From Saccoglossus kowalevskii (Eukaryota; Hemichordata; Enteropneusta; Harrimaniidae): a stretch of 35,000 bases of DNA. Under the pieces are notes generated by a model. It was not told the origin of the DNA. It saw only the letters and a program-made list of their open reading frames with translations, and searched no databases. Below are positions 1 to 35,000 of the stretch, piece after piece. The translations under genes and the position numbers were made by a program. The stretch covers positions 1 through 35,000 of the forward strand of contig NW_003109487.1 in assembly GCF_000003605.2 (NCBI RefSeq), in the 5' to 3' direction. How positions within the stretch are numbered: position 1 is the stretch's first letter; every line of letters starts with the position of its first letter.

Positions 1-70
1 TCGAAATTAAATCTTGAAACTCTGTCAAAATAAATTTGTGAAAATATAATCCTTTGCCTTCCTCCATGTA
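1..70. repeat. Diverged spacer, left edge
   Basis: This tract is the 3' part of a spacer (AAACTCTGTC, AAATTTGTGAAA are recognisable) but differs from all others: CAAAATAAATT, an ATATAATCC in place of the TATAAAAA box, and CCTTGCCTTCC in the leader. Divergence is higher than in internal units, as expected near an array end. Confidence 0.7.
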
Positions 71-154
71 AGTGCGGTGGCCGAGCAGTTAAGGCGTTGG
101 GCTTAAGTTTCCAATGGACGTTAACCCTCGTGGGTTCGAATCCCACCTGCACTA
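71..154 (+). pseudogene. Diverged tRNA-Leu(TAA) copy, left edge
   Basis: It is 84 nt long. It has G18A, A31G, an extra T after the anticodon loop (CTTAAGTTT), and ACCC in place of GTCC in the variable stem, which breaks that stem. The T arm (GTGGG-TTCGAAT-CCCAC) and acceptor (G6-T67 wobble) are sound. It is the most diverged copy in the window and probably a weak or dead gene. Confidence 0.7.
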
Positions 155-305
155 TACTATTTTGTGTGAATCCAGTTGAATGTGTCACTCCTTAAATTTT
201 CACTTTGATTAAACACAGTAATGGTGACATATCTCAAAATTTTAAATCTTTGAAACTCTGTCTAAATAAATTTGTGAAACTATAAAAATTTGACTCCATC
301 ATGTA

Positions 306-387
306 AGTGCGGTGGCCGAGCGGTTAAGACGTTGGACTTAAGTTCCAATGGACGTTAGTCCTCGTGGATTCAAATCCCACTGCACTA
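306..387 (+). pseudogene. tRNA-Leu(TAA)-like, 82 nt, three lesions
   Basis: It has C11-A24 in the D stem, G53A in the T stem and B box, and lacks one acceptor nucleotide near 66, leaving a 6-bp acceptor stem. Anticodon TAA is kept. Probably not functional. Confidence 0.65.
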
Positions 388-537
388 TACTATTTTGTGT
401 GAATCCAGTTGAATGTGTCACTCCTTAAATTTTCACTTTGATTAAACACAGTAATGGTGACATATCTCAAAATTTTAAATCTTTGAAACTCTGTCTAAAT
501 AAATTTGTGAAACTATAAAAATTAGCTCCATCATGTA

Positions 538-620
538 AGTGCGGTGGCCGAGCGGTTAAGACGTTGGACTTAAGTTCCAATGGACGTTAGTCCTCGTGGG
601 TTCAAATCCCACTCGCACTA
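538..620 (+). tRNA. tRNA-Leu(TAA), D-stem mismatch
   Basis: 83 nt. It has C11-A24 in the D stem and T66 (G7-T66 wobble). The T arm is intact. Trailer reads TACGATTTT, so the terminator is kept. A long, diverged spacer follows. Confidence 0.75.
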
Positions 621-916
621 TACGATTTTGTGTGAATCCAGTTGAATCTCTCCAAAGTACTTAAATTTCGTCAATGATGTTTTAGTGCAAACATGTTTTT
701 CTTTAGGGGTTCTAAAATGTGTCGTTACTTAAATTGTAAAATCTCTACAACTATTCCCAAAGTTTGCCTTCTAGTGACGACGCATTCCGTGACGTATAAT
801 ATCGATTGCGCCATTTTGATTAAACACAGTAATGGTGACATATCTCAAAATTTTAAATCTTTGAAACTCTGTCTAGATAAATTTGTGAAACTATATAAAT
901 TTGCCTCCATCACGTA
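621..916. repeat. Diverged long-type spacer
   Basis: This is the first long spacer and clearly the most diverged: CTCTCCAAAGTAC, TTTCGTCAATG, GTAAAATCTC, ATTCCCAAAGTTTGCC and ATTTTGATTAAACAC. The GATTAAAC form is otherwise found in short spacers, so this copy may resemble the ancestor of both types. A 74-codon open frame here (693-917) is not a gene. Confidence 0.75.
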
Positions 917-999
917 AGTGCAGTGGCCGAGCGGTTAAGACGTTGGACTTAAGTTCCAATGGACGTTAGTCCGCGTGGGTTCAAATCCCACCTGCACTA
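917..999 (+). tRNA. tRNA-Leu(TAA), compensated acceptor stem
   Basis: 83 nt. The acceptor reads AGTGCAG/CTGCACT: A6 pairs with T67, so the stem is fully Watson-Crick where most copies with T67 have a G-T wobble. The variable arm has GC in place of TC at 47-48 side. The D stem has C11-A24. A long spacer lies on both sides. Confidence 0.75.
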
Positions 1000-1297
1000 T
1001 ACTATTTTGTGTGAATCCAGTTGAATCTCTCCGAGCTACTTAAATTTTGTCAATGATGTTTCAGTGCAAACATGTTTTTCTTTGGGGGTTCTAAAATGTG
1101 TCATAACTTAAATTGCGAATGCTCCACAACTATTGCCAAAGTTCGCCCTCTAGTGATGACGCATTTCCGTGACGTATATTATCGATTGCGCCACTTTGTT
1201 TAAACACAGTAATGGTGACATATCTCAAAATTTTAAATCTTTGAAACATTGTCTAAATAAATTTGTGAAAATATAAAAAATGTTCCTCCAGTATGTA

Positions 1298-1379
1298 AGT
1301 GCGGTGGCCGAGCGGTTAAGGCGTTGGACTTAAGTTCCAATGGACGTTAGTCCTCGTGGATTCAAATCCCACTGCACTA
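1298..1379 (+). pseudogene. tRNA-Leu(TAA)-like, 82 nt, G53A
   Basis: The D stem is intact (GCC/GGC), but G53A breaks the last T-stem pair and the B box, and one acceptor nucleotide near 66 is missing. Long spacers flank it on both sides. Confidence 0.65.
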
Positions 1380-1677
1380 TACTATTTTGTGTGAATCCAG
1401 TTGAATCTCTCCGAACTACTTAAATTTTGTCAATGATGTTTCAGTGCAAACATGTTTTTCTTTAAGGGTTCTAAAATGTGTCGTTACTTAAATTGCGAAT
1501 GCTCCACAACTATTGCCAAAGTTCGCCGTCTAGTGATGACGCATTTCCGTGACGTATATTATCGATTGCGCCACTTTGTTTAAACACAGTAATGGTGACA
1601 TATCTCAAAATTTTAAATCTTTGAAACTTTGTCTAAATAAATTTGTGAAACTATAAAAAATGTTCCTCCAGTATGTA

Positions 1678-1760
1678 AGTGCGGTGGCCGAGCGGTTAAG
1701 GCGTTGGACTTAAGTTCCAATGGTCGTTAGTCCTCGTGGGTTCGAATCCCACCTGCACTA
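1678..1760 (+). tRNA. tRNA-Leu(TAA), near intact
   Basis: 83 nt. All main stems pair (G6-T67 wobble) and the T loop is TTCGAAT. One change, GGTC for GGAC, puts a T-T mismatch in the variable stem. Confidence 0.88.
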
Positions 1761-1911
1761 TACTATTTTGTGTGAATCCAGTTGAATGTGTCACTCCTTA
1801 AATTTTCACTTTGATTAAACACAGTAATGGTGACATATCTCAAGATTTTAAATCTTTGAAACTCTGTCTAAATAAATTTGTGAAACTATAAAAAATTGGC
1901 TCCATCATGTA

Positions 1912-1994
1912 AGTGCGGTGGCCGAGCGGTTAAGGCGTTGGACTTAAGTTCCAATGGACGTTAGTCCTCGTGGGTTCAAATCCCACCCGCACTA
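1912..1994 (+). tRNA. tRNA-Leu(TAA), intact
   Basis: Identical in all arms to the reference copy at 3988-4070. The trailer reads TACTACTTTG, so only three T remain and the usual terminator is weakened. Its paralogue at 29634-29716 shares this trailer. Confidence 0.93.
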
Positions 1995-2145
1995 TACTAC
2001 TTTGTGTGAATCCAGTTGAATGTGTCACACCTTAAATTTTCACTTTGATTAAACACAGTAATGGTGACATATCTCAAGATTTTAAATCTTTGAAACTCTG
2101 TCTAAAGAAATTTGTGAAACTATAAAAAATTGGCTCCATCATGTA

Positions 2146-2228
2146 AGTGCGGTGGCCGAGCGGTTAAGGCGTTGGACTTAAGTTCCAATGGACGTTAGTG
2201 CTCGTGGGTTCAAATCCCACCCGCTCTA
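2146..2228 (+). tRNA. tRNA-Leu(TAA), T3-T70 mismatch
   Basis: 83 nt. The acceptor 3' strand reads CCGCTCT (T3-T70), and the variable stem has GTGC for GTCC. Other arms are intact. Probably impaired. Twin copy at 29868-29950. Confidence 0.75.
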
Positions 2229-2525
2229 TTCTATTTTGTGTGAATCCAGTTGAATCTCTCCGAACTACTTAAATTTTGTCAATGATGTTTCAGTGCAAAC
2301 ATGTTTTTCTTTAGGGGTTCTAAAATGTGTCGTTACTTAAATTGTGAATGCTCTACAACTATTGCCAAAGTTCGCCCTCTAGTGATGACGCATTTCCGTG
2401 ACGTATATTATCGATTGCGCCACTTTGTTTAAACACAGTAATGGTGACATATCTCAAAATTTTAAATCTTTGAAACTTTGTCTAAATAATTTGTGAAACT
2501 ATAAAAAATGTGCCTTCAGTATGTA

Positions 2526-2608
2526 AGTGCGGTGGCCGAGCGGTTAAGGCGTTCGACTTAAGTTCCAATGGACGTTAGTCCTCGTGGGTTCGAACCCCAC
2601 ATGCACTA
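2526..2608 (+). tRNA. tRNA-Leu(TAA), anticodon-stem mismatch
   Basis: 83 nt. G29C gives a C29-C41 mismatch in the anticodon stem, and A66 opposes G7. T loop TTCGAAC. Twin at 15420-15502, exactly 12894 nt downstream. Confidence 0.7.
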
Positions 2609-2906
2609 TACTATTTTGTGTGAATCCAGTTGAATCTCTCCGAACTACTTAAATTTTGTCAATGATGTTTCAGTGCAAACATGTTTTTCTTTAGGGGTTC
2701 TAAAATGTGTCGTTACTTAAATTGTGAATGCTCTACAACTATTGCCAAAGTTCGCCCTCTAGTGATGACGCATTTCCGTGACGTATATTATCGATTGCGC
2801 CACTTTGTTTAAACACAGTAATGGTGACATATCACAAAATTTTAAATCTTTGAAACTCTGTCTAAACAAATTTGTGAAACTATAAAAAATGTGCCTCCAG
2901 TATGTA
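2609..2906. repeat. Long spacer (reference example; 37 copies)
   Basis: 298 nt. Compared with short spacers it carries about 147 extra nt: roughly 2636-2810 replaces a 29-nt tract. The insert contains CTCTCCGAACTACTTAAA, TTTCAGTGCAAACATG, TTCTTTAGGGGTTC and two TGACG motifs (GATGACGCAT, CCGTGACGTA). Long spacers start at 621, 1000, 1380, 2229, 2609, 3457, 5240, 6554, 7179, 7784, 8632, 9247, 10328, 10943, 13431, 14508, 15123, 15503, 16352, 16966, 18047, 19128, 20210, 21058, 22142, 23692, 24776, 25624, 27176, 28024, 28639, 29951, 30800, 31882, 32495, 33343 and 33957. All other spacers are short. No gene is visible in any of them. Confidence 0.9.
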
Positions 2907-2989
2907 AGTGCGGTGGCCGAGCGGTTAAGGCGTTGGACTTAAGTTCCAATGGACGTTAGTCCTTGTGGGTTCAAATCCCACCCGCACTA
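2907..2989 (+). tRNA. tRNA-Leu(TAA), C48T
   Basis: All stems pair as in the reference; the only change is C48T next to the T stem (CCTTGTGGG), which alters the G15-C48 tertiary pair. Its paralogue at 15801-15883 differs by one base, in the anticodon. Confidence 0.9.
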
Positions 2990-3140
2990 TACTATTTTGT
3001 GTGAATCCAGTTGAATGTATCACTCCTTAAATTTTCACTTTGATTAAACACAGTTATGATGACATATCTCAAAATTTTAAATCTTTGAAACTCTGTCTAA
3101 ATAAATTTGTGAAACTATAAAAATTTGACTCCATCATGTA

Positions 3141-3222
3141 AGTGCGGTGGCCGAGCGGTTAAGACGTTGGACTTAAGTTCCAATGGACGTTAGTCCTCGT
3201 GGATTCAAATCCCACTGCACGA
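3141..3222 (+). pseudogene. tRNA-Leu(TAA)-like, 82 nt, four lesions
   Basis: It has C11-A24, G53A, one lost acceptor nucleotide, and T72G (TGCACGA), which opposes A1. The trailer is GAAACTATTTT. The same odd 3' end recurs at 16650-16731. Confidence 0.65.
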
Positions 3223-3373
3223 AACTATTTTGTGTGAATCCAGTTGAATGTGTCACTCCTTAAATTTTCACTTTGATAAAACACAGTTATGATGACATAT
3301 CTCAAAATTTTAAATCTTTGAAACTCTGTCTAAATAAATTTGTGAAACTATAAAAATTTGACTCCATCATGTA

Positions 3374-3456
3374 AGTGCGGTGGCCGAGCGGTTAAGACGT
3401 TGGACTTAAGTTCCAATGGACGTTAGTCCTCGTGGGTTCAAATCCCACTTGCTCTA
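3374..3456 (+). tRNA. tRNA-Leu(TAA), impaired
   Basis: 83 nt. It has C11-A24, T66 and T3-T70 (TTGCTCT). Twin at 16883-16965. The spacer before it has the rare GATAAAACAC. Confidence 0.65.
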
Positions 3457-3753
3457 TACTATTTTGTGTGAATCCAGTTGAATCTCTCCGAACTACTTAA
3501 ATTTTGTCAATGATGTTTCAGTGCAAACATGTTTTTCTTTAGGGGTTCTAAAATGTGTCGTTACTTAAATTGTGAATGCTCTACAACTATTGCCAAAGTT
3601 CGCCCTCTAGTGATGACGCATTTCCGTGACGTATATTATCGATTGCGCCACTTTGTTTAAACACAGTAATGGTGACATATCTCAAAATTTTAAATCTTTG
3701 AAACTTTGTCTAAATAAATTTGTGAAACTATAAAAAATGTGCTTCAGTATGTA

Positions 3754-3836
3754 AGTGCGGTGGTCGAGCGGTTAAGGCGTTGGACTTAAGTTCCAATGGA
3801 CGTTAGTCCTCGTGGCTTCGAATCCCACCTGCACTA
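3754..3836 (+). tRNA. tRNA-Leu(TAA), T11 and G53C
   Basis: 83 nt. C11T leaves a T-G wobble in the D stem, and G53C (GTGGCTTCG) breaks the T stem and the first B-box base. Twin at 17263-17345, 13509 nt downstream. Confidence 0.7.
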
Positions 3837-3962
3837 TACTATTTTGTGTGAATCCAGTTGAATGTGTCACTCCTTAAATTTTCACTTTGATTAAACACAG
3901 TAATGGTGACATATCTCAAAATTTTAAATCTTTGAAACTCTGTCTAAATAAATTTGTGAAAC

Positions 3963-3971
3963 TATAAAAAA
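3963..3971 (+). promoter_or_regulatory. TATA-like box, 25 nt before tRNA (example)
   Basis: TATAAAAAA begins 25 nt before the first base of the tRNA at 3988. Nearly every unit has TATAAAAA or TATAAAAAA at this place. A TATA element near -30 to -25 is known to aid TFIIIB placement on tRNA genes in plants, insects and fission yeast. Its role here is inferred from position and conservation, and conservation is weak evidence in a homogenised array. Confidence 0.55.
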
Positions 3972-3987
3972 TTGGCTCCATCATGTA

Positions 3988-4070
3988 AGTGCGGTGGCCG
4001 AGCGGTTAAGGCGTTGGACTTAAGTTCCAATGGACGTTAGTCCTCGTGGGTTCAAATCCCACCCGCACTA
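3988..4070 (+). tRNA. tRNA-Leu(TAA), reference intact copy
   Basis: Cytosolic leucine tRNA reading UUA. It is 83 nt: acceptor AGTGCGG/CCGCACT, all seven pairs Watson-Crick; U8-G9; D stem GCC/GGC with loop GAGCGGTTAA holding A14, G15, G18 and G19; anticodon stem TTGGA/TCCAA with loop CTTAAGT; variable stem GGAC/GTCC; T stem GTGGG/CCCAC with loop TTCAAAT; A73, the leucine discriminator in eukaryotes. No CCA follows (TAC instead), so CCA is added after transcription. A box TGGCCGAGCGG and B box GGTTCAAATCC fit Pol III consensus. Long variable arm and TAA anticodon exclude serine. About twenty copies share this exact sequence. Confidence 0.96.
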
Positions 4071-4075
4071 TACTA

Positions 4076-4079
4076 TTTT
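4076..4079 (+). terminator. Pol III TTTT terminator (example)
   Basis: A run of four T starts six nt after A73 (TACTATTTTG). This trailer is present in almost all units; exceptions with only TTT follow the copies ending at 1994, 4773, 13808, 29716 and 32875. A second TTTT lies further into each spacer (TTAAATTTTCAC or TTAAATTTTGTC). Confidence 0.75.
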
Positions 4080-4151
4080 GTGTGAATCCAGTTGAATGTG
4101 TCACTCCTTGAATTTTCACTTTGATTAAACACAGTAATGGTGACATATCTC

Positions 4152-4166
4152 AAGATTTTAAATCTT
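4152..4166. repeat. Short inverted repeat in spacer (example)
   Basis: AAGATTT and AAATCTT are perfect reverse complements around a single T. It recurs in each unit whose spacer reads CTCAAGATTTT; spacers reading CTCAAAATTTT have a weaker dyad. It sits about 50 to 70 nt before the tRNA. No known role. Confidence 0.5.
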
Positions 4167-4221
4167 TGAAACTCTGTCTAAATAAATTTGTGAAACTATA
4201 AAAAATTGGCTCCATCATGTA

Positions 4222-4304
4222 AGTGCGGTGGCCGAGCGGTTAAGGCGTTGGACTTAAGTTCCAATGGACGTTAGTCCTCGTGGGTTCAAATCCCACCTGC
4301 ACTA
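4222..4304 (+). tRNA. tRNA-Leu(TAA), intact (G6-T67)
   Basis: Differs from the reference by T67 only, giving a G-U wobble in the acceptor stem. Trailer TACTGTTTTG keeps four T. Confidence 0.92.
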
Positions 4305-4455
4305 TACTGTTTTGTGTGAATCCAGTTGAATGTGTCACTCCTTAAATTTTCACTTTGATTAAACACAGTTATGATGACATATCTCAAAATTTTAAATCTT
4401 TGAAACTCTGTCTAAATAAATTTGTGAAACTATAAAAATTTGACTCCATCATGTA

Positions 4456-4538
4456 AGTGCGGTGGCCGAGCGGTTAAGGCGTTGGACTTAAGTTCCAATG
4501 GACGTTAGTCCTCGTGGGTTCAAATCCCACCCGCACTA
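4456..4538 (+). tRNA. tRNA-Leu(TAA), intact
   Basis: Same body as the reference, but with the TTTGACTCC leader usually seen before C11-A24 copies, so leader and body have been recombined. Confidence 0.94.
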
Positions 4539-4690
4539 TACTATTTTGTGTGAATCCAGTTGAATGTGTCACTCCTTGAATTTTCACTTTGATTAAACAC
4601 AGTAATGGTGACATATCACAAAATTTTAAATCTTTGAAACTCTGTCTAAACAAATTTGTGAAACTATAAAAAATGTGCCTCCAGTATGTA

Positions 4691-4773
4691 AGTGCGGTGG
4701 TCGAGCGGTAAAGGCGTTGGACTTAAGTTCCAATGGACGTTAGTCCTCGTGGGTTCGAATCCCACCTGCACTA
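4691..4773 (+). tRNA. tRNA-Leu(TAA), T11 and short terminator
   Basis: 83 nt. C11T gives a T-G wobble in the D stem and the D loop has GGTAAA. Other arms are intact with T loop TTCGAAT. The trailer CTATTTGTG has only three T. Confidence 0.82.
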
Positions 4774-4923
4774 TACTATTTGTGTGAATCCAGTTGAATG
4801 TGTCACTCCTTAAATTTTCACTTTGATTAAACACAGTAATGGTGACATATCTCAAGATTTTAAATCTTTGAAACTCTGTCTAAATAAATTTGTGAAACTA
4901 TAAAAAATTAGCTCCATCATGTA

Positions 4924-5006
4924 AGTGCGGTGGCCGAGCGGTTAAGGCGTTGGACTTAAGTTCCAATGGACGTTAGTCCTCGTGGGTTCAAATCCCACCC
5001 GCACTA
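4924..5006 (+). tRNA. tRNA-Leu(TAA), intact
   Basis: Same body as the reference; leader ATTAGCTCC. Confidence 0.94.
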
Positions 5007-5157
5007 TACTATTTTGTGTGAATCCAGTTGAATGTGTCACTCCTTGAATTTTCACTTTGATTAAACACAGTAATGGTGACATATCTCAAGATTTTAAATC
5101 TTTGAAACTCTGTCTAAATAAATTTGTGAAACTATAAAAATTTGACTCCATCATGTA

Positions 5158-5239
5158 AGTGCGGTGGCCGAGCGGTTAAGACGTTTGACTTAAGTTCCAA
5201 TGGACGTTAGTCCTCGTGGGTTCAAATCCCACAGCACTA
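5158..5239 (+). pseudogene. tRNA-Leu(TAA)-like, 82 nt, G29T
   Basis: It has C11-A24, T29-C41 in the anticodon stem and a shortened acceptor (CCCAC-AGCACTA). Related copy at 20976-21057 shares G29T. Confidence 0.65.
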
Positions 5240-5537
5240 TACTATTTTGTGTGAATCCAGTTGAATCTCTCCGAACTACTTAAATTTTGTCAATGATGTT
5301 TCAGTGCAAACATGTTTTTCTTTAGGGGTTCTAAAATGTGTCGTTACTTAAATTGTGAAGGCTCTACAACTATTGCCAAAGTTCGCCCTCTAGTGATGAC
5401 GCATTTCCGTGACGTATATTATCGATTGCGCCACTTTGTTTAAACACAGTAATGGTGACATATCTCAAAATTTTAAATCTTTGAAACTTTGTCTAAATAA
5501 ATTTGTGAAACTATAAAAAATGTGCCTTCAGTATGTA

Positions 5538-5618
5538 AGTGCGGTGGCCGTGCGGTTAAGGCGTTGGACTTAAGTTCAATGATCGTTAGTCCTCGTGGGT
5601 TCGAATCGAACTGCACTA
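5538..5618 (+). pseudogene. Degenerate tRNA-Leu(TAA)
   Basis: 81 nt. A14T removes the U8-A14 contact, one C is lost from the anticodon stem 3' side (AGTTCAAT), the variable stem is GATC, and the T stem 3' strand is CGAAC in place of CCCAC with one further base lost. Related to 28937-29019. Confidence 0.8.
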
Positions 5619-5769
5619 TACTATTTTGTGTGAATCCAGTTGAATGTGTCACTCCTTAAATTTTCACTTTGATTAAACACAGTAATGGTGACATATCTCA
5701 AGATTTTAAATCTTTGAAACTCTGTCTAAATAAATTTGTGAAACTATAAAAAATTGGCTCCATCATGTA

Positions 5770-5852
5770 AGTGCGGTGGCCGAGCGGTTAAGGCGTTGGA
5801 CTTAAGTTCCAATGGACGTTAGTCCTCGTGGGTTCAAATCCCACCTGCACTA
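5770..5852 (+). tRNA. tRNA-Leu(TAA), intact (G6-T67)
   Basis: Reference body with the T67 wobble; leader ATTGGCTCC. Confidence 0.92.
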
Positions 5853-6003
5853 TACTATTTTGTGTGAATCCAGTTGAATGTGTCACTCCTTGAATTTTCA
5901 CTTTGATTAAACACAGTAATGGTGACATATCTCAAGATTTTAAATCTTTGAAAGTCTGTCTAAATAAATTTGTGAAACTATAAAAAATTGGCTCCATCAT
6001 GTA

Positions 6004-6086
6004 AGTGCGGTGGCCGGGCGGTTAAGGCGTTGGACTTAAGTTCCAATGGACGTTAGTCCTTGTGGGTTCAAATCCCACCTGCACTA
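6004..6086 (+). tRNA. tRNA-Leu(TAA), A14G and C48T
   Basis: 83 nt. A14G (CCGGGCGG) changes an invariant D-loop base and the A box; C48T lies next to the T stem. Stems otherwise pair. The spacer before it has GAAAGTCTG, shared with the unit at 29405. Confidence 0.75.
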
Positions 6087-6237
6087 TACTATTTTGTGTG
6101 AATCCAGTTGAATGTGTCACTCCTTAAATTTTCACTTTGATTAAACACAGTAATGGTGACATATCTCAAGATTTTAAATCTTTGAAACTCTGTCTAAATA
6201 AATTTGTGAAACTATAAAAAATTGGCTCCATCATGTA

Positions 6238-6319
6238 AGTGCGGTGGCCGAGCGGTTAAGGCGTTGGACTTAAGTTCCAATGGACGTTAGTCCTCGTGCG
6301 TTCAAATCCCACCCGCATA
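6238..6319 (+). pseudogene. tRNA-Leu(TAA)-like, G52C and C71 lost
   Basis: 82 nt. G52C (GTGCGTTC) breaks the T stem and B box, and C71 is missing (CCGCATA). The same pair of lesions occurs at 27708-27789 and 33027-33108, so it spread by duplication. Confidence 0.75.
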
Positions 6320-6470
6320 TACTATTTTGTGTGAATCCAGTTGAATGTGTCACTCCTTAAATTTTCACTTTGATTAAACACAGTTATGATGACATATCTC
6401 AAAATTTTAAATCTTTGAAACTCTGTCTAAATAAATTTGTGAAACTATAAAAATGTGCCTCCATTATGTA

Positions 6471-6553
6471 AGTGCGGTGGCCGAGCGGTTAAGACGTTGG
6501 ACTTAAATTCCAATGGACGTTAGTCCTCGTGGGTTCAAATCCCACCCGCACTA
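6471..6553 (+). tRNA. tRNA-Leu(TAA), D-stem mismatch, A37
   Basis: 83 nt. C11-A24, and anticodon loop CTTAAAT (G37A next to the anticodon). Acceptor and T arm intact. Leader ATGTGCCTCCATTATG. Sister copies at 27941 and 33260. Confidence 0.75.
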
Positions 6554-6851
6554 TACTATTTTGTGTGAATCCAGTTGAATCTCTCCGAACTACTTAAATT
6601 TTGTCAATGATGTTTCAGTGCAAACATGTTTTTCTTTAGGGGTTCTAAAATGTGTCGTTACTTAAATTGTGAATGCTCTACAACTATTGCCAAAGTTCGC
6701 CCTCTAGTGATGACGCATTTCCGTGACGTATATTATCGATTGCGCCACTTTGTTTAAACACAGTAATGGTGACATATCTCAAAATTTTAAATCTTTGAAA
6801 CTCTGTCTAAATAAATTTGTGAAACTATAAAAAATGTGCCTGCAGTATGTA

Positions 6852-6944
6852 AGTGCGGTGGCCGGGCGGTTAAAGCGTTGGACTTAAGTTCCAATGGACG
6901 TTAGTCCTCGTGGGTTCGAATCCCACCTGCACTATACTATTTTG
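6852..6944 (+). tRNA. tRNA-Leu(TAA), A14G and G23A
   Basis: A14G and G23A (C12-A23 mismatch) alter the D arm; the rest pairs, with T loop TTCGAAT and G6-T67. The end here includes the trailer's start because A73 is at 6934+10 by block count; the body is 83 nt if measured to CACTA. Probably impaired. Confidence 0.6.
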
Positions 6945-7085
6945 TGTGAATCCAGTTGAATGTGTCACTCCTTAAATTTTCACTTTGATTAAACACAGTA
7001 ATGGTGACATATCTCAAGATTTTAAATCTTTGAAACTCTGTCTAAATAAATTTGTGAAACTATAAAAAATTGGCTCCATCATGTA

Positions 7086-7178
7086 AGTGCGGTGGCCGAG
7101 TGGTTAAGGCGTTGGACTTAAGTTCCAATGGACGTTTGTGCTCGTGGGTTCAAATCCCACCCGCTCTATACTATTTTG
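7086..7178 (+). tRNA. tRNA-Leu(TAA), T3-T70
   Basis: It has C16T (harmless), variable arm loop GTTT with GTGC stem strand, and T3-T70 (CCGCTCT). D, anticodon and T stems are intact. Confidence 0.6.
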
Positions 7179-7466
7179 TGTGAATCCAGTTGAATCTCTC
7201 CGAACTACTTAAATTTTGTCAATGATGTTTCAGTGCAAACATGTTTTTCTTTAGGGGTTCTAAAATGTGTCGTTACTTAAATTGTGAATGCTCTACAACT
7301 ATTGCCAAAGTTCGCCCTCTAGTGATGACGCATTTCCGTGACGTATATTATCGATTGCGCCACTTTGTTTAAACACAGTAATGGTGACATATCTCAAAAT
7401 TTTAAATCTTTGAAACTCTGTCTAAATAAATTTGTGAAACTATAAAAAATGTGCCTGCAGTATGTA

Positions 7467-7549
7467 AGTGCGGTGGCCGTGCGGTTAAGGCGTTGGACTT
7501 AAGTTCCAATGGACGTTAGTCCTCGTGGGTTCGAATCAAACCTGCGCTA
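7467..7549 (+). pseudogene. Degenerate tRNA-Leu(TAA)
   Basis: 83 nt. A14T, T-stem 3' strand CAAAC in place of CCCAC, and A70G (CTGCGCT, T3-G70 wobble). The broken T stem makes function unlikely. Sister copy at 31098-31180. Confidence 0.75.
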
Positions 7550-7700
7550 TACTATTTTGTGTGAATCCAGTTGAATGTGTCACTCCTTAAATTTTCACTT
7601 TGATTAAACACAGTAATGGTGACATATCTCAAGATTTTAAATCTTTGAAACTCTGTCTAAATAAATTTGTGAAACTATAAAAAATTGGCTCCATCATGTA

Positions 7701-7783
7701 AGTGCGGTGGCCGAGCTGTTAAGGTGTTGGACTTAAGTTCCAATGGACGTTAGTCCTCGTGGGTTCAAATCCCACCCGCACTA
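7701..7783 (+). tRNA. tRNA-Leu(TAA), G18T and C25T
   Basis: 83 nt. G18T removes an invariant D-loop base that contacts the T loop; C25T gives G10-T25. Acceptor and T arm are perfect. Probably reduced in function. Confidence 0.75.
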
Positions 7784-8081
7784 TACTATTTTGTGTGAAT
7801 CCAGTTGAATCTCTCCGAACTACTTAAATTTTGTCAATGATGTTTCAGTGCAAACATGTTTTTCTTTAGGGGTTCTAAAATGTGTCGTTACTTAAATTGT
7901 GAAGGCTCTACAACTATTGCCAAAGTTCGCCCTCTAGTGATGACGCATTTCCGTGACGTATATTATCGATTGCGCCACTTTGTTTAAACACAGTAATGGT
8001 GACATATCACAAAATTTTTAATCTTTGAAACTCTGTCTAAACAAATTTGTGAAACTATAAAAAATGTGCCTCCAGTATGTA

Positions 8082-8164
8082 GGTGCGGTGGCCGAGTGGT
8101 TAAGGCGTTGGACTTAAGTTCCAATGGACGTTAGTCCTCGTGGGTTCAAATCCCACACGCACTA
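8082..8164 (+). tRNA. tRNA-Leu(TAA), G1 family, A66
   Basis: 83 nt. A1G gives G1-T72, and A66 opposes G7 (CCCAC-ACGCACT). C16T in the D loop. Follows a long spacer. Confidence 0.72.
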
Positions 8165-8315
8165 TACTATTTTGTGTGAATCCAGTTGAATGTGTCACTC
8201 CTTGAATTTTCACTTTGATTAAACACAGTAATGGTGACATATCTCAAGATTTTAAATCTTTGAAACTCTGTCTAAATAAATTTGTGAAACTATAAAAAAT
8301 TGGCTCCATCATGTA

Positions 8316-8398
8316 AGTGCGGTGGCCGAGCGGTTAAGGCGTTGGACTTAAGTTCCAATGGACGTTAGTCCTCGTGGGTTCAAATCCCACCCGCACTA
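8316..8398 (+). tRNA. tRNA-Leu(TAA), intact
   Basis: Same body as the reference; leader ATTGGCTCC. Confidence 0.94.
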
Positions 8399-8549
8399 TA
8401 CTATTTTGTGTGAATCCAGTTGAATGTGTCACTCCTTAAATGTTCACTTTGATTAAACACAGTTATGATGACATATCTCAAAATTTTAAATCTTTGAAAC
8501 TCTGTCTAAATAAATTTGTGAAACTATAAAAATTTGCCTCCATCATGTA

Positions 8550-8631
8550 AGTGCGGTGGCCGAGCGGTTAAGACGTTGGACTTAAGTTCCAATGGACGTT
8601 AGTCCTCGTGGGTTCAAATCCCACTGCACTA
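8550..8631 (+). tRNA. tRNA-Leu(TAA), 82 nt, short acceptor
   Basis: C11-A24, and one acceptor nucleotide missing near 66 (CCCAC-TGCACTA). T arm intact. Probably impaired, since the acceptor plus T-arm helix is one pair short. Confidence 0.65.
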
Positions 8632-8929
8632 TACTATTTTGTGTGAATCCAGTTGAATCTCTCCGAACTACATAAATTTTGTCAATGATGTTTCAGTGCA
8701 AACATGTTTTTCTTTAGGGGTTCTAAAATGTGTCGTTACTTAAATTGTGAAGGCTCTACAACTATTGCCAAAGTTCGCCCTCTAGTGATGACGCATTTCC
8801 GTGACGTATATTATCGATTGCGCCACTTTGTTTAAACACAGTAATGGTGACATATCACAAAATTTTAAATCTTTGAAACTCTGTCTAAACAAATTTGTGA
8901 AACTATAAAAAATGTGCCTCCAGTATGTA

Positions 8930-9012
8930 GGTGCGGTGGCCGAGTGGTTAAGGCGTTGGACTTAAGTTCCAATGGACGTTAGTCCTCGTGGGTTCAAATC
9001 CCACACACACTA
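8930..9012 (+). pseudogene. tRNA-Leu(TAA)-like, G1, broken acceptor
   Basis: 83 nt. A1G, and acceptor 3' strand ACACACT: A66 opposes G7 and A68 opposes C5. Other arms intact. Confidence 0.65.
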
Positions 9013-9163
9013 TACTATTTTGTGTGAATCCAGTTGAATGTGTCACTCCTTAAATTTTCACTTTTATTAAACACAGTAATGGTGACATATCTCAAAATTT
9101 TAAATCTTTGAAACTCTGTCTAAATAAATTTGTGAAACTATAAAAATTTGACTCCATCATGTA

Positions 9164-9246
9164 AGTGCGGTGGCCGAGCGGTTAAGACGTTGGACTTAAG
9201 TTCCAATGGACGTTAGTGCTCGTGGGTTCAAATCCCACCTGCTCTA
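9164..9246 (+). tRNA. tRNA-Leu(TAA), impaired
   Basis: 83 nt. C11-A24, T3-T70 and variable-stem GTGC. This lesion set recurs at 10860, 15040, 16269 and 33874, always before a long spacer. Confidence 0.65.
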
Positions 9247-9544
9247 TACTATTTTGTGTGAATCCAGTTGAATCTCTCCGAACTACTTAAATTTTGTCAA
9301 TGATGTTTCAGTGCAAACATGTTTTTCTTTAGGGGTTCTAAAATGTGTCGTTACTTAAATTGTGAATGCTCTACAACTATTGCCAAAGTTCGCCCTCTAG
9401 TGATGACGCATTTCCGTGACGTATATTATCGATTGCGCCACTTTGTTTAAACACAGTAATGGTGACATATCTCAAAATTTTAAATCTTTGAAACTCTGTC
9501 TAAATAAATTTGTGAAACTATAAAAAATGTGCCTGCAGTATGTA

Positions 9545-9627
9545 AGTGCGGTGGCCGAGCGGTTAAGGCGTTGGATTTAAGTTCCAATGGACGTTAGTCC
9601 TCGTGGGTTCGAATCCCACCTGCACTA
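9545..9627 (+). tRNA. tRNA-Leu(TAA), C32T
   Basis: 83 nt. Anticodon loop TTTAAGT (C32T); all stems pair with G6-T67. Likely functional. Leader has GCCTGCAGTATG. Sister at 30249. Confidence 0.88.
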
Positions 9628-9778
9628 TACTATTTTGTGTGAATCCAGTTGAATGTGTCACTCCTTAAATTTTCACTTTGATTAAACACAGTAATGGTGA
9701 CATATCTCAAGATTTTAAATCTTTGAAACTCTGTCTAAATAAATTTGTGAAACTATAAAAAATTGGCTCCATCATGTA

Positions 9779-9861
9779 AGTGCGGTGGCCGAGCGGTTAA
9801 GGCGTTGGACTTAAGTTCCAATGGACGTTAGTCCTCGTGGGTTCAAATCCCACCCGCACTA
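9779..9861 (+). tRNA. tRNA-Leu(TAA), intact
   Basis: Same body as the reference. Confidence 0.94.
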
Positions 9862-10012
9862 TACTATTTTGTGTGAATCCAGTTGAATGTGTCACTCCTT
9901 AAATTTTCACTTTGATTAAACACAGTTATGATGACATGTCTCAAAATTTTAAATCTTTGAAACTCTGTCTAAATAAATTTGTGAAACTATAAAAATTTGA
10001 CTCCATCATGTA

Positions 10013-10094
10013 AGTGCGGTGGCCGAGCGGTTAAGACGTTGGACTTAAGTTCCAATGGACGTTAGTCCTCGTGGATTCAAATCCCACTGCACTA
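10013..10094 (+). pseudogene. tRNA-Leu(TAA)-like, 82 nt, three lesions
   Basis: C11-A24, G53A and the short acceptor, the same set as 306-387. The upstream spacer has GACATGTCTC for GACATATCTC. Confidence 0.65.
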
Positions 10095-10245
10095 TACTAT
10101 TTTGTGTGAATCCAGTTGAATGTGTCACTCCTTAAATTTTCACTTTGATTAAACACAGTTATGATGACATATCTCAAAATTTTAAATCTTTGAAACTCTG
10201 TCTAAATAAATTTGTGAATCTATAAAAATTTGACTCCATCATGTA

Positions 10246-10327
10246 AGTGCGGTGGCCGAGCGGTTAAGACGTTGGACTTAAGTTCCAATGGACGTTAGTT
10301 CTCGTGGGTTCAAATCCCACTGCACTA
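10246..10327 (+). tRNA. tRNA-Leu(TAA), 82 nt, short acceptor
   Basis: C11-A24, short acceptor, and GTTC in the variable stem (wobble). T stem intact. Probably impaired. Confidence 0.65.
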
Positions 10328-10625
10328 TACTATTTTGTGTGAATCCAGTTGAATCTCTCCGAACTACTTAAATTTTGTCAATGATGTTTCAGTGCAAACA
10401 TGTTTTTCTTTAGGGGTTCTAAAATGTGTCGTTACTTAAATTGTGAAGGCTCTACAACTATTGCCAAAGTTCGCCCTCTAGTGATGACGCATTTCCGTGA
10501 CGTATATTATCGATTGCGCCACTTTGTTTAAACACAGTAATGGTGACATATCACAAAATTTTAAATCTTTGAAACTCTGTCTAAACAAATTTGTGAAACT
10601 ATAAAAAATGTGCCTCCAGTATGTA

Positions 10626-10708
10626 GGTGCGGTGGCCGAGTGGTTAAGGCGTTGGACTTAAGTTCCAATGGACGTTAGTCCTCGTGGGTTCAAATCCCAC
10701 CCGCACTA
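10626..10708 (+). tRNA. tRNA-Leu(TAA), G1 family
   Basis: 83 nt. G1-T72 wobble and C16T; everything else pairs perfectly. Follows a long spacer with the CCAGTATGTAG leader. Confidence 0.82.
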
Positions 10709-10859
10709 TACTATTTTGTGTGAATCCAGTTGAATGTGTCACTCCTTAAATTTTCACTTTGATTAAACACAGTTATGATGACATATCTCAAAATTTTAAA
10801 TCTTTGAAACTCTGTCTAAATAAATTTGTGAAACTATAAAAATTTGACTCCATCATGTA

Positions 10860-10942
10860 AGTGCGGTGGCCGAGCGGTTAAGACGTTGGACTTAAGTTCC
10901 AATGGACGTTAGTGCTCGTGGGTTCAAATCCCACCTGCTCTA
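10860..10942 (+). tRNA. tRNA-Leu(TAA), impaired
   Basis: C11-A24, T3-T70, GTGC in the variable stem; same lesion set as 9164. Confidence 0.65.
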
Positions 10943-11240
10943 TACTATTTTGTGTGAATCCAGTTGAATCTCTCCGAACTACTTAAATTTTGTCAATGAT
11001 GTTTCAGTGCAAACATGTTTTTCTTTAGGGGTTCTAAAATGTGTCGTTACTTAAATTGTGAATGCTCTACAACTATTGCCAAAGTTCGCCCTCTAGTGAT
11101 GACGCATTTCCGTGACGTATATTATCGATTGCGCCACTTTGTTTAAACACAGTAATGGTGACATATCACAAAATTTTAAATCTTTGAAACTCTGTCTAAA
11201 CAAATTTGTGAAACTATAAAAAATGTGCCTCCAGTATGTA

Positions 11241-11323
11241 GGTGCGGTGGCCGAGTGGTTAAGGCGTTGGACTTAAGTTCCAATGGATGTTAGTCCTCGT
11301 GGGTTCAAATCCCACCCGCACTA
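11241..11323 (+). tRNA. tRNA-Leu(TAA), G1 family
   Basis: G1-T72 and C16T; variable stem GGAT/GTCC keeps a T-G wobble. Other arms intact. Confidence 0.82.
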
Positions 11324-11474
11324 TACTATTTTGTGTGAATCCAGTTGAATGTGTCACTCCTTAAATTTTCACTTTGATTAAACACAGTTATGATGACATA
11401 TCTCAAAATTTTAAATCTTTGAAACTCTGTCTAAATAAATTTGTGAAACTATAAAAATTTGACTCCATCATGTA

Positions 11475-11557
11475 AGTGCGGTGGCCGAGCGGTTAAGGCG
11501 TTGGACTTAAGTTCCAATGGACGTTAGTCCTCGTGGGTTCAAATCCCACCCGCACTA
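11475..11557 (+). tRNA. tRNA-Leu(TAA), intact
   Basis: Same body as the reference, with TTTGACTCC leader. First unit of the 937-bp duplication. Confidence 0.94.
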
Positions 11558-11709
11558 TACTATTTTGTGTGAATCCAGTTGAATGTGTCACTCCTTGAAT
11601 TTTCACTTTGATTAAACACAGTAATGGTGACATATCTCAAAATTTTAAATCTTTGAAACTTTGTCTAAATAAATTTGTGAAACTATAAAAAATGTGCCTT
11701 CAGTATGTA

Positions 11710-11792
11710 AGTGCGGTGGCCGAGCGGTTAAGGCGTTGGACTTAAGTTCCAATGGACGTTAGTCATCGTGGGTTCGAATCCCACCTGCACTA
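11710..11792 (+). tRNA. tRNA-Leu(TAA), variable-stem change
   Basis: G6-T67 and TTCGAAT; GTCA in the variable stem gives one G-A mismatch. Otherwise intact and likely functional. Confidence 0.87.
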
Positions 11793-11943
11793 TACTATTT
11801 TGTGTGAATCCAGTTGAATGTGTCACTCCTTAAATTTTCACTTTGATTAAACACAGTAATGGTGACATATCTCAAGATTTTAAATCTTTGAAACTCTGTC
11901 TAAATAAATTTGTGAAACTATAAAAAATTAGCTCCATCATGTA

Positions 11944-12026
11944 AGTGCGGTGGCCGAGCGGTTAAGGCGTTGGACTTAAGTTCCAATGGACGTTAGTCCT
12001 CGTGGGTTCAAATCCCACCCGCACTA
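11944..12026 (+). tRNA. tRNA-Leu(TAA), intact
   Basis: Same body as the reference; ATTAGCTCC leader. Confidence 0.94.
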
Positions 12027-12177
12027 TACTATTTTGTGTGAATCCAGTTGAATGTGTCACTCCTTGAATTTTCACTTTGATTAAACACAGTAATGGTGAC
12101 ATATCTCAAGATTTTAAATCTTTGAAACTCTGTCTAAATAAATTTGTGAAACTATAAAAAATTGGCTCCATCATGTA

Positions 12178-12260
12178 AGTGCGGTGGCCGAGCGGTTAAG
12201 GCGTTGGACTTAAGTTCCAATGGACGTTAGTCCTCGTGGGTTCAAATCCCACCTGCACTA
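12178..12260 (+). tRNA. tRNA-Leu(TAA), intact (G6-T67)
   Basis: Reference body with T67. The following spacer has GTGTCGCTCC. Confidence 0.92.
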
Positions 12261-12411
12261 TACTATTTTGTGTGAATCCAGTTGAATGTGTCGCTCCTTA
12301 AATTTTCACTTTGATTAAACACAGTTATGATGACATATCTCAAAATTTTAAATCTTTGAAACTCTGTCTAAATAAATTTGTGAAACTATAAAAATTTGAC
12401 TCCATCATGTA

Positions 12412-12494
12412 AGTGCGGTGGCCGAGCGGTTAAGGCGTTGGACTTAAGTTCCAATGGACGTTAGTCCTCGTGGGTTCAAATCCCACCCGCACTA
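12412..12494 (+). tRNA. tRNA-Leu(TAA), intact
   Basis: Second copy of the unit at 11475; same body as the reference. Confidence 0.94.
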
Positions 12495-12646
12495 TACTAT
12501 TTTGTGTGAATCCAGTTGAATGTGTCACTCCTTGAATTTTCACTTTGATTAAACACAGTAATGGTGACATATCTCAAAATTTTAAATCTTTGAAACTTTG
12601 TCTAAATAAATTTGTGAAACTATAAAAAATGTGCCTTCAGTATGTA

Positions 12647-12729
12647 AGTGCGGTGGCCGAGCGGTTAAGGCGTTGGACTTAAGTTCCAATGGACGTTAGT
12701 CCTCGTGGGTTCGAATCCCACCTGCACTA
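12647..12729 (+). tRNA. tRNA-Leu(TAA), intact (G6-T67)
   Basis: Second copy of the unit at 11710, with the normal GTCC variable stem; T loop TTCGAAT. Confidence 0.93.
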
Positions 12730-12880
12730 TACTATTTTGTGTGAATCCAGTTGAATGTGTCACTCCTTAAATTTTCACTTTGATTAAACACAGTAATGGT
12801 GACATATCTCAAGATTTTAAATCTTTGAAACTCTGTCTAAATAAATTTGTGAAACTATAAAAAATTAGCTCCATCATGTA

Positions 12881-12963
12881 AGTGCGGTGGCCGAGCGGTT
12901 AAGGCGTTGGACTTAAGTTCCAATGGACGTTAGTCCTCGTGGGTTCAAATCCCACCCGCACTA
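12881..12963 (+). tRNA. tRNA-Leu(TAA), intact
   Basis: Second copy of the unit at 11944; same body as the reference. Confidence 0.94.
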
Positions 12964-13114
12964 TACTATTTTGTGTGAATCCAGTTGAATGTGTCACTCC
13001 TTGAATTTTCACTTTGATTAAACACAGTAATGGTGACATATCTCAAGATTTTAAATCTTTGAAACTCTGTCTAAATAAATTTGTGAAACTATAAAAAATT
13101 GGCTCCATCATGTA

Positions 13115-13197
13115 AGTGCGGTGGCCGAGCGGTTAAGGCGTTGGACTTAAGTTCCAATGGACGTTAGTCCTCGTGGGTTCAAATCCCACCTGCACTA
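13115..13197 (+). tRNA. tRNA-Leu(TAA), intact (G6-T67)
   Basis: Second copy of the unit at 12178. Confidence 0.92.
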
Positions 13198-15800: not shown

Positions 15801-15883
15801 AGTGCGGTGGCCGAGCGGTTAAGGCGTTGGACTTTAGTTCCAATGGACGTTAGTCCTTGTGGGTTCAAATCCCACCCGCACTA
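15801..15883 (+). tRNA. tRNA-Leu body with TTA (ochre suppressor) anticodon
   Basis: 83 nt, all stems Watson-Crick. The anticodon loop reads CTTTAGT, so bases 15834-15836 are TTA, complementary to the UAA stop codon. The only other departure from the reference is C48T, shared with its paralogue at 2907-2989; the two tRNAs differ at A35T alone. Leucyl-tRNA synthetases of eukaryotes rely largely on A73 and the body, so charging with leucine is plausible. TATA-like box, A and B boxes and TTTT are present. Expression and suppression are inference; a base-call error would restore TAA. Confidence 0.85.
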
Positions 15884-24692: not shown

Positions 24693-24775
24693 AGTGCGGT
24701 GGCCGAGCGGTTAAGACGTTGGACTTATGTTCCAATGGACGTTAGTCCTCGTGGGTTCAAATCCCACCTGCTCTA
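24693..24775 (+). tRNA. tRNA-Leu body with TAT anticodon, impaired
   Basis: 83 nt. The anticodon loop reads CTTATGT, so bases 24726-24728 are TAT, which would read the isoleucine codon AUA. The body also has C11-A24 and T3-T70, like its sister at 22059 with a normal anticodon. If expressed and charged by leucyl-tRNA synthetase it would put Leu at AUA; the lesions make that unlikely. Automated tools may call it Ile. Confidence 0.75.
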
Positions 24776-33108: not shown

Positions 33109-33259
33109 TACTATTTTGTGTGAATCCAGTTGAATGTGTCACTCCTTAAATTTTCACTTTGATTAAACACAGTTATGATGACATATCTCAAAATTTTAAA
33201 TCTTTGAAACTCTGTCTAAATAAATTTGTGAAACTATAAAAATGTGCCTCCATTATGTA

Positions 33260-33342
33260 AGTGCGGTGGCCGAGCGGTTAAGACGTTGGACTTAAATTCC
33301 AATGGACGTTAGTCCTCGTGGGTTCAAATCCCTCCCGCACTA
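33260..33342 (+). tRNA. tRNA-Leu(TAA), impaired
   Basis: C11-A24, loop CTTAAAT, and A64T (CCCTC) opposing T50 in the T stem. Confidence 0.66.
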
Positions 33343-33639
33343 TACTATTTTGTGTGAATCCAGTTGAATCTCTCCGAACTACTTAAATTTTGTCAATGAT
33401 GTTTCAGTGCAAACATGTTTTTCTTTAGGGGTTCTAAAATATGTCGTTACTTAAATTGTGAATGCTCTACCACTATTGCCAAAGTTCGCCCTCTAGTGAT
33501 GACGCATTTCCGTGACGTATATTATCGATTGCGCCACTTTGATTAAACACAGTTATGATGACATATCTCAAAATTTTAAATCTTTGAAACTCTGTCTAAA
33601 TAAATTTGTGAAACTATAAAAATTTGCCTCCATCATGTA

Positions 33640-33722
33640 AGTGCGGTGGCCGAGCGGTTAAGGCGTTGGACTTAAGTTCCAATGGACGTTAGTCCTCGTG
33701 GGTTCAAATCCCACCTGCACTA
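33640..33722 (+). tRNA. tRNA-Leu(TAA), intact (G6-T67)
   Basis: Reference body with T67 and TTTGCCTCC leader. Preceded by a hybrid long spacer. Confidence 0.92.
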
Positions 33723-33873
33723 TACTATTTTGTGTGAATCCAGTTGAATGTGTCGCTCCTTAAATTTTCACTTTGATTAAACACAGTAATGGTGACATAT
33801 CTCAAAATTTTAAATCTTTGAAACTCTGTCTAAATAAATTTGTGAAACTATAAAAATTTGACTCCATCATGTA

Positions 33874-33956
33874 AGTGCGGTGGCCGAGCGGTTAAGACGT
33901 TGGACTTAAGTTCCAATGGACGTTAGTGCTCGTGGGTTCAAATCCCACCTGCTCTA
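33874..33956 (+). tRNA. tRNA-Leu(TAA), impaired
   Basis: C11-A24, T3-T70, GTGC variable stem. Confidence 0.65.
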
Positions 33957-34254
33957 TACTATTTTGTGTGAATCCAGTTGAATCTCTCCGAACTACTTAA
34001 ATTTTGTCAATGATGTTTCAGTGCAAACATGTTTTTCTTTAGGGGTTCTAAAATGTGTCGTTACTTAAATTGTGAATGCTCTACAACTATTGCCAAAGTT
34101 CGCCCTCTAGTGATGACGCATTTCCGTGACGTATATTATCGATTGCGCCACTTTGTTTAAACACAGTAATGGTGACATATCACAAAATTTTAAATCTTTG
34201 AAACTCTGTCTAAACAAATTTGTGAAACTATAAAAAATGTGCCTCCAGTATGTA

Positions 34255-34337
34255 GGTGCTGTGGTCGAGCGGTTAAGGCGTTGGACTTAAGTTCCAATGG
34301 ACGTTAGTCCTCGTGGGTTCGAATCCCACCTGCACTA
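34255..34337 (+). tRNA. tRNA-Leu(TAA), G1, T6, T11
   Basis: G1-T72, T6-T67 mismatch and T11-G24 wobble; T arm TTCGAAT intact. Its 5' half recurs at 16650. Confidence 0.68.
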
Positions 34338-34488
34338 TACTATTTTGTGTGAATCCAGTTGAATGTGTCACTCCTTAAATTTTCACTTTGATTAAACACA
34401 GTAATGGTGACATATCTCAAAATTTTAAATCTTTGAAACTCTGTCTAAATAAATTTGTGAAACTATAAAAAATTGGCTCCATCATGTA

Positions 34489-34571
34489 AGTGCGGTGGCC
34501 GAGCGGTTAAGGCGTTGGACTTAAGTTCCAATGGACGTTAGTCCTCGTGGGTTCAAATCCCACCCGCACTA
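34489..34571 (+). tRNA. tRNA-Leu(TAA), intact
   Basis: Same body as the reference. Confidence 0.94.
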
Positions 34572-34722
34572 TACTATTTTGTGTGAATCCAGTTGAATGT
34601 GTCACTCCTTGAATTTTCACTTTGATTAAACACAGTAATGGTGACATATCTCAAGATTTTAAATCTTTGAAACTCTGTCTAAATAAATTTGTGAAACTAT
34701 AAAAAATTGGCTCCATCATGTA

Positions 34723-34805
34723 AGTGCGGTGGCCGAGCGGTTAAGGCGTTGGACTTAAGTTCCAATGGACGTTAGTCCTCGTGGGTTCAAATCCCACCCG
34801 CACTA
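34723..34805 (+). tRNA. tRNA-Leu(TAA), intact
   Basis: Same body as the reference. Confidence 0.94.
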
Positions 34806-34956
34806 TACTATTTTGTGTGAATCCAGTTGAATGTGTCACTCCTTAAATTTTCACTTTGATTAAACACAGTTATGATGACATATCTCAAAATTTTAAATCT
34901 TTGAAACTCTGTCTAAATAAATTTGTGAAACTATAAAAATTTGACTCCATCATGTA

Positions 34957-35000
34957 AGTGCGGTGGCCGAGCGGTTAAGACGTTGGACTTAAGTTCCAAT
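34957..35000 (+). tRNA. tRNA-Leu(TAA), cut by window end
   Basis: First 44 nt, through the anticodon stem. C11-A24 is present; anticodon TAA. The array continues past the right edge. Confidence 0.85.

Follow-up and report, generated by a model that had tools for sequence, protein, structure and literature searches.

The stretch of DNA analysed here (the window) covers positions 1 to 35,000 of contig C399 (NW_003109487.1, 43,907 bp in total) in the draft assembly of the acorn worm Saccoglossus kowalevskii (GCF_000003605.2; 572 Mb in 4830 contigs), and it is occupied by a head-to-tail array of tRNA-Leu(UAA) genes, comprising 126 complete units and a 127th that is cut by the window edge, all on the forward strand (Table 1). 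In the window, ARAGORN recognizes 125 tRNA genes, again on this strand only; 122 of these are Leu(TAA), and the remaining three, one reported as '???' (at position 71), one with the anticodon TTA (15801) and one with the anticodon TAT (24693), are variants of the same gene. An ungapped position scan of the window finds 126 unit starts and no counterpart on the minus strand, where the best position has 29 of 60 matches, Rfam returns 124 matches that reach a gathering score (29.2 to 64.0 bits), tRNA without exception, and the window contains no complete open reading frame of 80 amino acids or more. The spacing of the units (125 intervals in the window) falls into two classes, of ~234 and ~380 bp, with 88 intervals of 229-235 bp and 37 intervals of 378-381 bp, the two being interspersed along the GC-poor array, with one gene per unit. 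A homogeneous tandem tRNA array is recognized by adjacent genes less than 1 kb apart, of the same isoacceptor, in parallel orientation and with homologous spacers; here, each of the 125 intervals measures between 229 and 381 bp, the isoacceptor is the same save for the three variants, and 147 units, all on the plus strand, can be placed in one alignment. The regular period rules out a chance origin.

The original prediction, of a giant single-isoacceptor Leu(UAA) array that runs past the right edge, with all copies on one strand and no other gene, is thus borne out. Past the window, C399 continues with a 2,500-base gap of N, followed by 22 further Leu(TAA) genes (ARAGORN), and the array ends at about C399:43,660 with a truncated copy (by eye), after which about 240 bp of other sequence lead to the contig end. 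On the left, the contig start falls inside the array, so the left array end lies outside C399. Overall, the array contains about 150 copies of one leucine tRNA gene, the exact copy number being uncertain.

Table 1. Coordinates of the array and of selected features in the window.
Feature	Position	Strand	Basis
Tandem tRNA-Leu(UAA) array	1..35000, on to ~C399:43,660	+	ARAGORN, position scan
Example tRNA-Leu(UAA) gene, 83 nt, CCA not encoded	1678..1760	+	ARAGORN, Rfam 61.0 bits
TATA-like stretch ~26 bp upstream of example gene	1652..1660	+	Sequence motif
A box of example gene	1685..1695	+	Consensus pattern
B box of example gene	1739..1749	+	Consensus pattern
TTTT, terminator-like for RNA polymerase III (Pol III), just 3' of example gene	1766..1769	+	Sequence motif
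Spacer segment of long (~380 bp) units	1027..1191	+	Replaced by a 19-bp segment in short (~234 bp) units, by eye
Damaged tRNA copy absent from ARAGORN list	5538..5620	+	Position scan
Anticodon TTA copy (would read UAA), otherwise well-scoring tRNA-Leu body	15801..15883	+	ARAGORN, 63.1 bits
Anticodon TAT copy on tRNA-Leu body	24693..24775	+	ARAGORN, 47.8 bits
127th tRNA copy, cut by window edge	34957..35000	+	Beyond the 126 complete units

As to the state of the copies, the alignment contains 147 units, taken from the window and from the part of the array beyond it (104 short and 43 long, the gap-bearing interval being excluded), the first of which is 97.4% identical to the consensus. Most of the units retain putative signals for Pol III transcription: the A box pattern is present in 134 and the B box pattern in 138 of the 147 units (both by consensus pattern), TTTT is found no more than 20 bases from the gene end in 142, and a TATA-like motif is found in the last 40 bases of 146. 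A strict check, requiring a length of 83 nt, paired acceptor, D, anticodon and T stems, a TAA anticodon, A73, both boxes and TTTT, is passed by 65 of the 147 units, 52 of these starting in the window, and is failed by 82. The 147 units represent 111 distinct sequences when taken whole, and 71 when the tRNA is considered. The earlier statement that every unit holds the same tRNA therefore applies to descent and not to sequence.

Genes for tRNA-Leu(UAA) are not confined to C399. A genome scan with the Leu(UAA) core, allowing up to 2 mismatches, found 256 matches (none with the reversed control), and the 100 matches listed fall on C278, C399, C1497, C3466, and C4723. C278 (15.75 kb) presents a second Leu(UAA) array, with a unit of 157 bp, in which ARAGORN recognizes 95 tRNAs, 81 with the anticodon TAA, 11 with CAA and three with others. 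The tRNA consensus of this array differs from that of C399 at 3 of 83 sites, and the spacers have no match beyond ~10 bases. The 157-bp type is also present in two places, separated by other sequence, within the first 7.5 kb of C1497 (171 kb). Two Leu(UAA) genes, both well formed by eye, are found 6.4 kb apart on C4723 (612 kb), with no others within the 9 kb fetched. At position 67 these two genes carry G, which they share with 34 of the 147 array units, A being present in 112 of the units. One of them carries the CATGTA leader of the C399 array and its 3' flank, TACTATTTT, with one change, but beyond a few bases the flanks of both genes differ from the array. The spacer of the long units was found on C399 only, among the 40 scored of 45 candidates; as the alignment includes 43 long units, the five unscored candidates are probably on C399 and perhaps also on C3466, where a 380-bp step is seen. 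The dispersal typical of a tRNA-derived short interspersed element was not seen, either for the long spacer, among the candidates scored, or for the flanks of the C4723 genes.

These data also bear on the question of whether the copies may have been multiplied or scrambled in the assembly. The draft is indeed split into 4830 contigs, gaps of N occur in or next to arrays, and some contigs are almost entirely array. However, 111 of the 147 units are distinct, the biggest class of identical units numbers 7, no exact recurrence of three or more consecutive units is seen, one array end, with its truncated copy, is present, and the 157-bp Leu family occurs on two contigs, the 171-kb one having other sequence alongside. 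We consider an artefact to be extremely improbable.

Leucine is one of several families repeated in this genome. When ARAGORN was run on fetched stretches, Arg-UCG arrays were recognized on C237, C1937, and C3006, Cys arrays on C926, C682, and C4368, a Trp array on C4826, a Thr-UGU array on C4103, and Ile-AAU arrays on C550 and C636, along with a group of three Ile genes on C128. Each of the Leu, Arg, Cys, Trp, Thr, and Ile stretches so analysed is of one isoacceptor, save for scattered anticodon variants, and none shows multi-gene units of the Entamoeba type, there being one intact tRNA per unit. For Trp alone, the list of matches is complete, with 23 on C577, 23 on C4826 and two on C3109, thus 46 of 48 in two arrays. 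Repeats of His, Val, initiator Met, and Lys genes were found by single patterns only, and other tRNAs may lie between their copies; copy counts in general depend on the search patterns. The His repeat is on C824 (pattern matches, anticodon read by eye). The initiator Met core gave 247 matches at up to 3 mismatches, at least 100 of them mismatch-free in the 34-base core, with 61 on C341 and 32 on C3681 among the 100 listed. The repeat on C341 (positions 1110-59915) advances in ~603-bp steps over nearly 60 kb, with at least 61 matches mismatch-free in the 34-nt core. The Lys-CUU core gave 101 matches at up to 2 mismatches, contigs C4166, C2779, C874, and C1622 being among those listed; of the 100 matches listed, 99 are on contigs with at least six listed copies and one is alone on its contig. 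The Val repeat on C631 mixes two isoacceptors: across positions 645-20186, Val-CAC and Val-AAC (anticodons by eye) are found on opposite strands, and the strands are swapped in the right half.

In one general search for tRNA genes (634 matches), all of the 100 listed belong to Ile or Cys groups. In a second (789 matches, 2 with the control), C117, C130, C201, C343, and C413 each have a single place among the 100 listed, although part of these places may be tRNA-like repeats. Single listed places were also seen for Val, His, initiator Met and others, and on C3484 a top-scoring Arg gene has no tRNA neighbour within 9 kb. Thus, tRNA genes outside arrays exist in this genome.

Trp, Cys, and His are, as a rule, rare residues in proteins. 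The presence of arrays or repeats of other tRNAs in the same genome argues against UUA codon demand, and the suggestion of the original prediction, that the array serves to raise UUA decoding capacity, is not supported, as the genes for Trp, Cys, His, and initiator Met show the same kind of repetition. The 256 genome matches to the Leu(UAA) core would be expected if the dosage of this tRNA were selected for, but the 82 copies failing the strict check would not, and we view selected dosage as very improbable; codon demand was dropped as the main cause, tRNAs of other kinds being repeated alike. What is seen looks less like the result of a particular need for tRNA-Leu(UAA) than like a genome-wide tendency of tRNA genes to become satellite-like repeats.

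The Leu, Arg, Cys, Trp, and Thr arrays each have a consensus spacer of their own, and matches between them are limited to the tRNA parts, so each array was probably amplified independently. Within one isotype, the two Ile arrays (C550 and C636) have a spacer in common, at 78-80%. A shared mobile unit was also considered and was dropped, since the consensus spacers differ between arrays and the long spacer belongs to C399 only, within the scored set described above. The private spacers are relevant, too, to the proposal that the array acts as a boundary or clustering site bound by TFIIIC. The B box pattern in 138 of the 147 units would provide for such binding, and a human tRNA tandem repeat has been implicated as a boundary element (PMC4041453). 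However, no spacer element is common to the C399 Leu array and the Arg, Cys, Trp or Thr arrays, and to judge from these sequences an architectural role has but a slim chance of being the explanation.

Probable traces of the amplification process can be seen in some of the units. The Arg unit of ~565 bp (C237) is an old dimer in which one tRNA-Arg has decayed, and two decayed tRNA-Thr lie in the Thr unit of ~580 bp (C4103), a structure that fits with repeated local duplication. No decayed second tRNA was found in the Trp, Cys, or Leu units.

The explanation that we favor, with a probability of about 0.65, is that the window presents one of many arrays that would have been built from ordinary nuclear tRNA genes and that consist of redundant copies, mostly with putative Pol III signals. 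A single Leu(UAA) gene with short flanks (leader, gene, and TTTT) would have been amplified locally, most likely through unequal crossing-over or slippage, and the copies would have been kept similar via further unequal exchange and gene conversion, as the unit structure and the near-identity of the units suggest. As Pol III signals are present in most units and 65 of the 147 pass the strict check, the array could enlarge the tRNA-Leu(UAA) pool, through transcription that we infer. At the same time it would evolve like satellite DNA, without selection on single copies.

The patterns of variation weigh against this explanation in several respects. In the C399 Leu array, the tRNA is not the more conserved part, with a nucleotide diversity (pi) of 0.043 versus 0.034 for the rest of the unit, and on C278 the two hardly differ (0.067 for tRNA versus 0.068 for spacer). 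Rare variants (present in no more than three copies, the first unit excluded) number 44 per 82.8 site equivalents in the tRNA and 57 per 194.2 in the spacer, densities of 0.53 versus 0.29 per site. For singletons the excess in the tRNA is significant overall (p = 0.002); split by base class, it is 3.1-fold for G/C (p = 0.02) and 2.1-fold for A/T sites (p = 0.06). When variants present in up to two or up to three copies are counted, the overall p values are 0.015 and 0.004, respectively, neither base class being significant alone. The variants disrupt base pairs at the chance rate (0.46-0.57 versus an expected 0.44-0.48), and this, along with the variant density, leaves the single copies without a sign of purifying selection. 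Likewise, in the Arg, Trp, and Thr arrays the diversity of the tRNA is little or no lower than that of the spacer, and singletons are denser in the tRNA in the three Arg sets, in the Trp set and, among the three Cys sets, in that of C4368. Adjacent units, moreover, are no more alike than distant ones, the mean ungapped distance over tRNA bases 1-70 being 3.42 at lag 1 and 3.41 for all pairs, and recent neighbour-to-neighbour duplication is therefore not visible; neighbour similarity was dropped as a mark of recent local duplication on account of these equal distances.

The higher density of rare variants in the tRNA than in the spacer is the opposite of what is expected under function, and singletons behave likewise in several other arrays. 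We do not claim transcription-associated mutation as its source, as the substitution spectrum is mixed. Decay through methylation was also considered and was dropped, as transitions at CpG are not in excess (7 of 26 CpG sites versus 28 of 118 other sites, p = 0.80).

Copies without a sign of purifying selection are what would be expected if the array were inert, a by-product of recombination-prone Pol III genes that is silent in chromatin, with tRNA-Leu(UAA) being supplied by a few genes outside arrays. The original prediction had raised a similar possibility, of a selfish satellite that contains a Pol III gene, and this fits a part of the data, namely the single copies without a sign of selection. 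Inertness would further agree with the 82 copies that fail the strict check and with the well-formed appearance of the two C4723 genes outside arrays. There are also precedents: in most tissues of Arabidopsis, the Ser-Tyr cluster carries methylation and is silenced (PMC12308677), and for tRNA genes in clusters a methylated, repressed state is cited as the usual one (PMC11700998). On the other hand, more than 90% of the units retain Pol III signals, and the C399 and C278 arrays, with their unrelated spacers, have near-identical tRNA consensuses. The Cys arrays are less diverse in the tRNA than in the spacer, by about half on all three contigs (pi of 0.041-0.057 versus 0.081-0.133), which argues for use of at least the Cys family, although the singletons of C4368 point the other way. 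The mismatch-free cores in at least 100 of the 247 initiator Met matches likewise speak against inert copies. Finally, the lack of excess CpG transitions, along with an observed/expected CpG ratio of 0.93, leaves no trace of long germline methylation and weakly disfavors it. On balance, we regard wholesale inertness as rather unlikely, though well worth bearing in mind.

A broader proposition may be considered: most tRNA genes, those for initiator Met included, might reside in separate, independently grown arrays of 10-60 kb, mostly of one isoacceptor, with selection holding the array consensus and not the single copies, and with anticodon-shifted copies (UUA or CAA on the Leu body; GUA, GAA, or CCA on the Cys body) persisting as a permanent reservoir of suppressor or new isoacceptor tRNAs. 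We put this forward tentatively, as possible but doubtful, the more so as the His, initiator Met, and Lys repeats are known from single patterns. As to the anticodon-shifted copies themselves, the Leu body occurs with TTA or TAT on C399 and with CAA in 11 of 95 copies on C278, and Cys bodies occur with GTA, GAA, or CCA.

Uniform tRNA arrays are already known, and what is noteworthy is the scale and the number of the arrays in one deuterostome. The view of the original prediction, that known tandem arrays usually mix isoacceptors, is not supported, given several examples. One example is presented by plants, with uniform clusters of 27 tRNA-Pro genes in Arabidopsis and 28 tRNA-Ile genes in maize, and with clusters of 2 to 110 genes in one survey (PMC12652284, PMC11700998), and with a tRNA-Cys cluster in Arabidopsis made of ~420 bp repeating units of one gene each (PMC12652284, PMC11700998, PMC10701932). 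These are, as on C399, tandem copies of a single tRNA, but they are described as having tens of copies, in few clusters per genome, versus ~150 in one array and at least six isotypes by ARAGORN here. Another example is Entamoeba, in which almost all tRNA genes are in arrays, with no link to codon usage, and for which a single-gene unit, [H-GTG], is on record in Entamoeba equi (PMC2652664). The organization of tRNA genes into many distinct tandem arrays genome-wide is a likeness; the difference is that the Entamoeba units are described as having up to five genes and no clear pseudogene copies, whereas the units examined here have one intact gene and many of the copies are damaged. Among animals, zebrafish, Xenopus, and Nematostella have very many clustered tRNA genes, mostly in heterogeneous pairs, and in drosophilids the pairs are mostly homogeneous (PMC2888827). 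The first three thus share with the acorn worm a richness in clustered tRNA genes, but their pairs are, by that account, mostly mixed, whereas the arrays examined here by ARAGORN are of a single isoacceptor save for anticodon variants. The human 1q23.3 variable number tandem repeat, of 9-43 units and variable in copy number (PMC4041453), is also a tandem repeat of tRNA-bearing units, but its unit, as described, is 7.3 kb, GC-rich and CTCF-binding, whereas here it is ~234 or ~380 bp, GC-poor and with one gene. Among the best matches in open-licence papers we found no report of such tRNA arrays in an acorn worm, which is not proof of novelty.

The assembly also includes a mitochondrial contig (C4830), in which COX1 (Pfam match) is inverted and adjoins ND1, COX2 lying farther on (ND1 and COX2 being identified by eye). 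The gene order led us to set aside amphioxus (Asymmetron) as the source. When compared with solved structures, COX1 scores 927.0 bits with ATA read as Ile and AAA as Lys, 924.5 with AAA read as Asn and 919.5 with ATA read as Met, and by eye AAA occupies positions of conserved Lys, and one AGA that of a conserved Ser in ND1. An inverted COX1, along with AUA as Ile, AAA as Lys, and AGA as Ser, is described for the Saccoglossus kowalevskii mitochondrion (PMC3121625), and the features are probably of the Saccoglossus type.

In conclusion, Saccoglossus presents an animal case in which several tRNA genes would each have turned satellite-like, opening the questions of how tRNA copy number is set and of which copies are used, and also that of whether tandem amplification is especially frequent at Pol III genes. 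The many variants in the C399 array would make expressed copies distinguishable, and the anticodon-shifted copies, if expressed, could serve as suppressor or misreading tRNAs. In genomes of this kind, tRNA gene counts may say little about codon demand.

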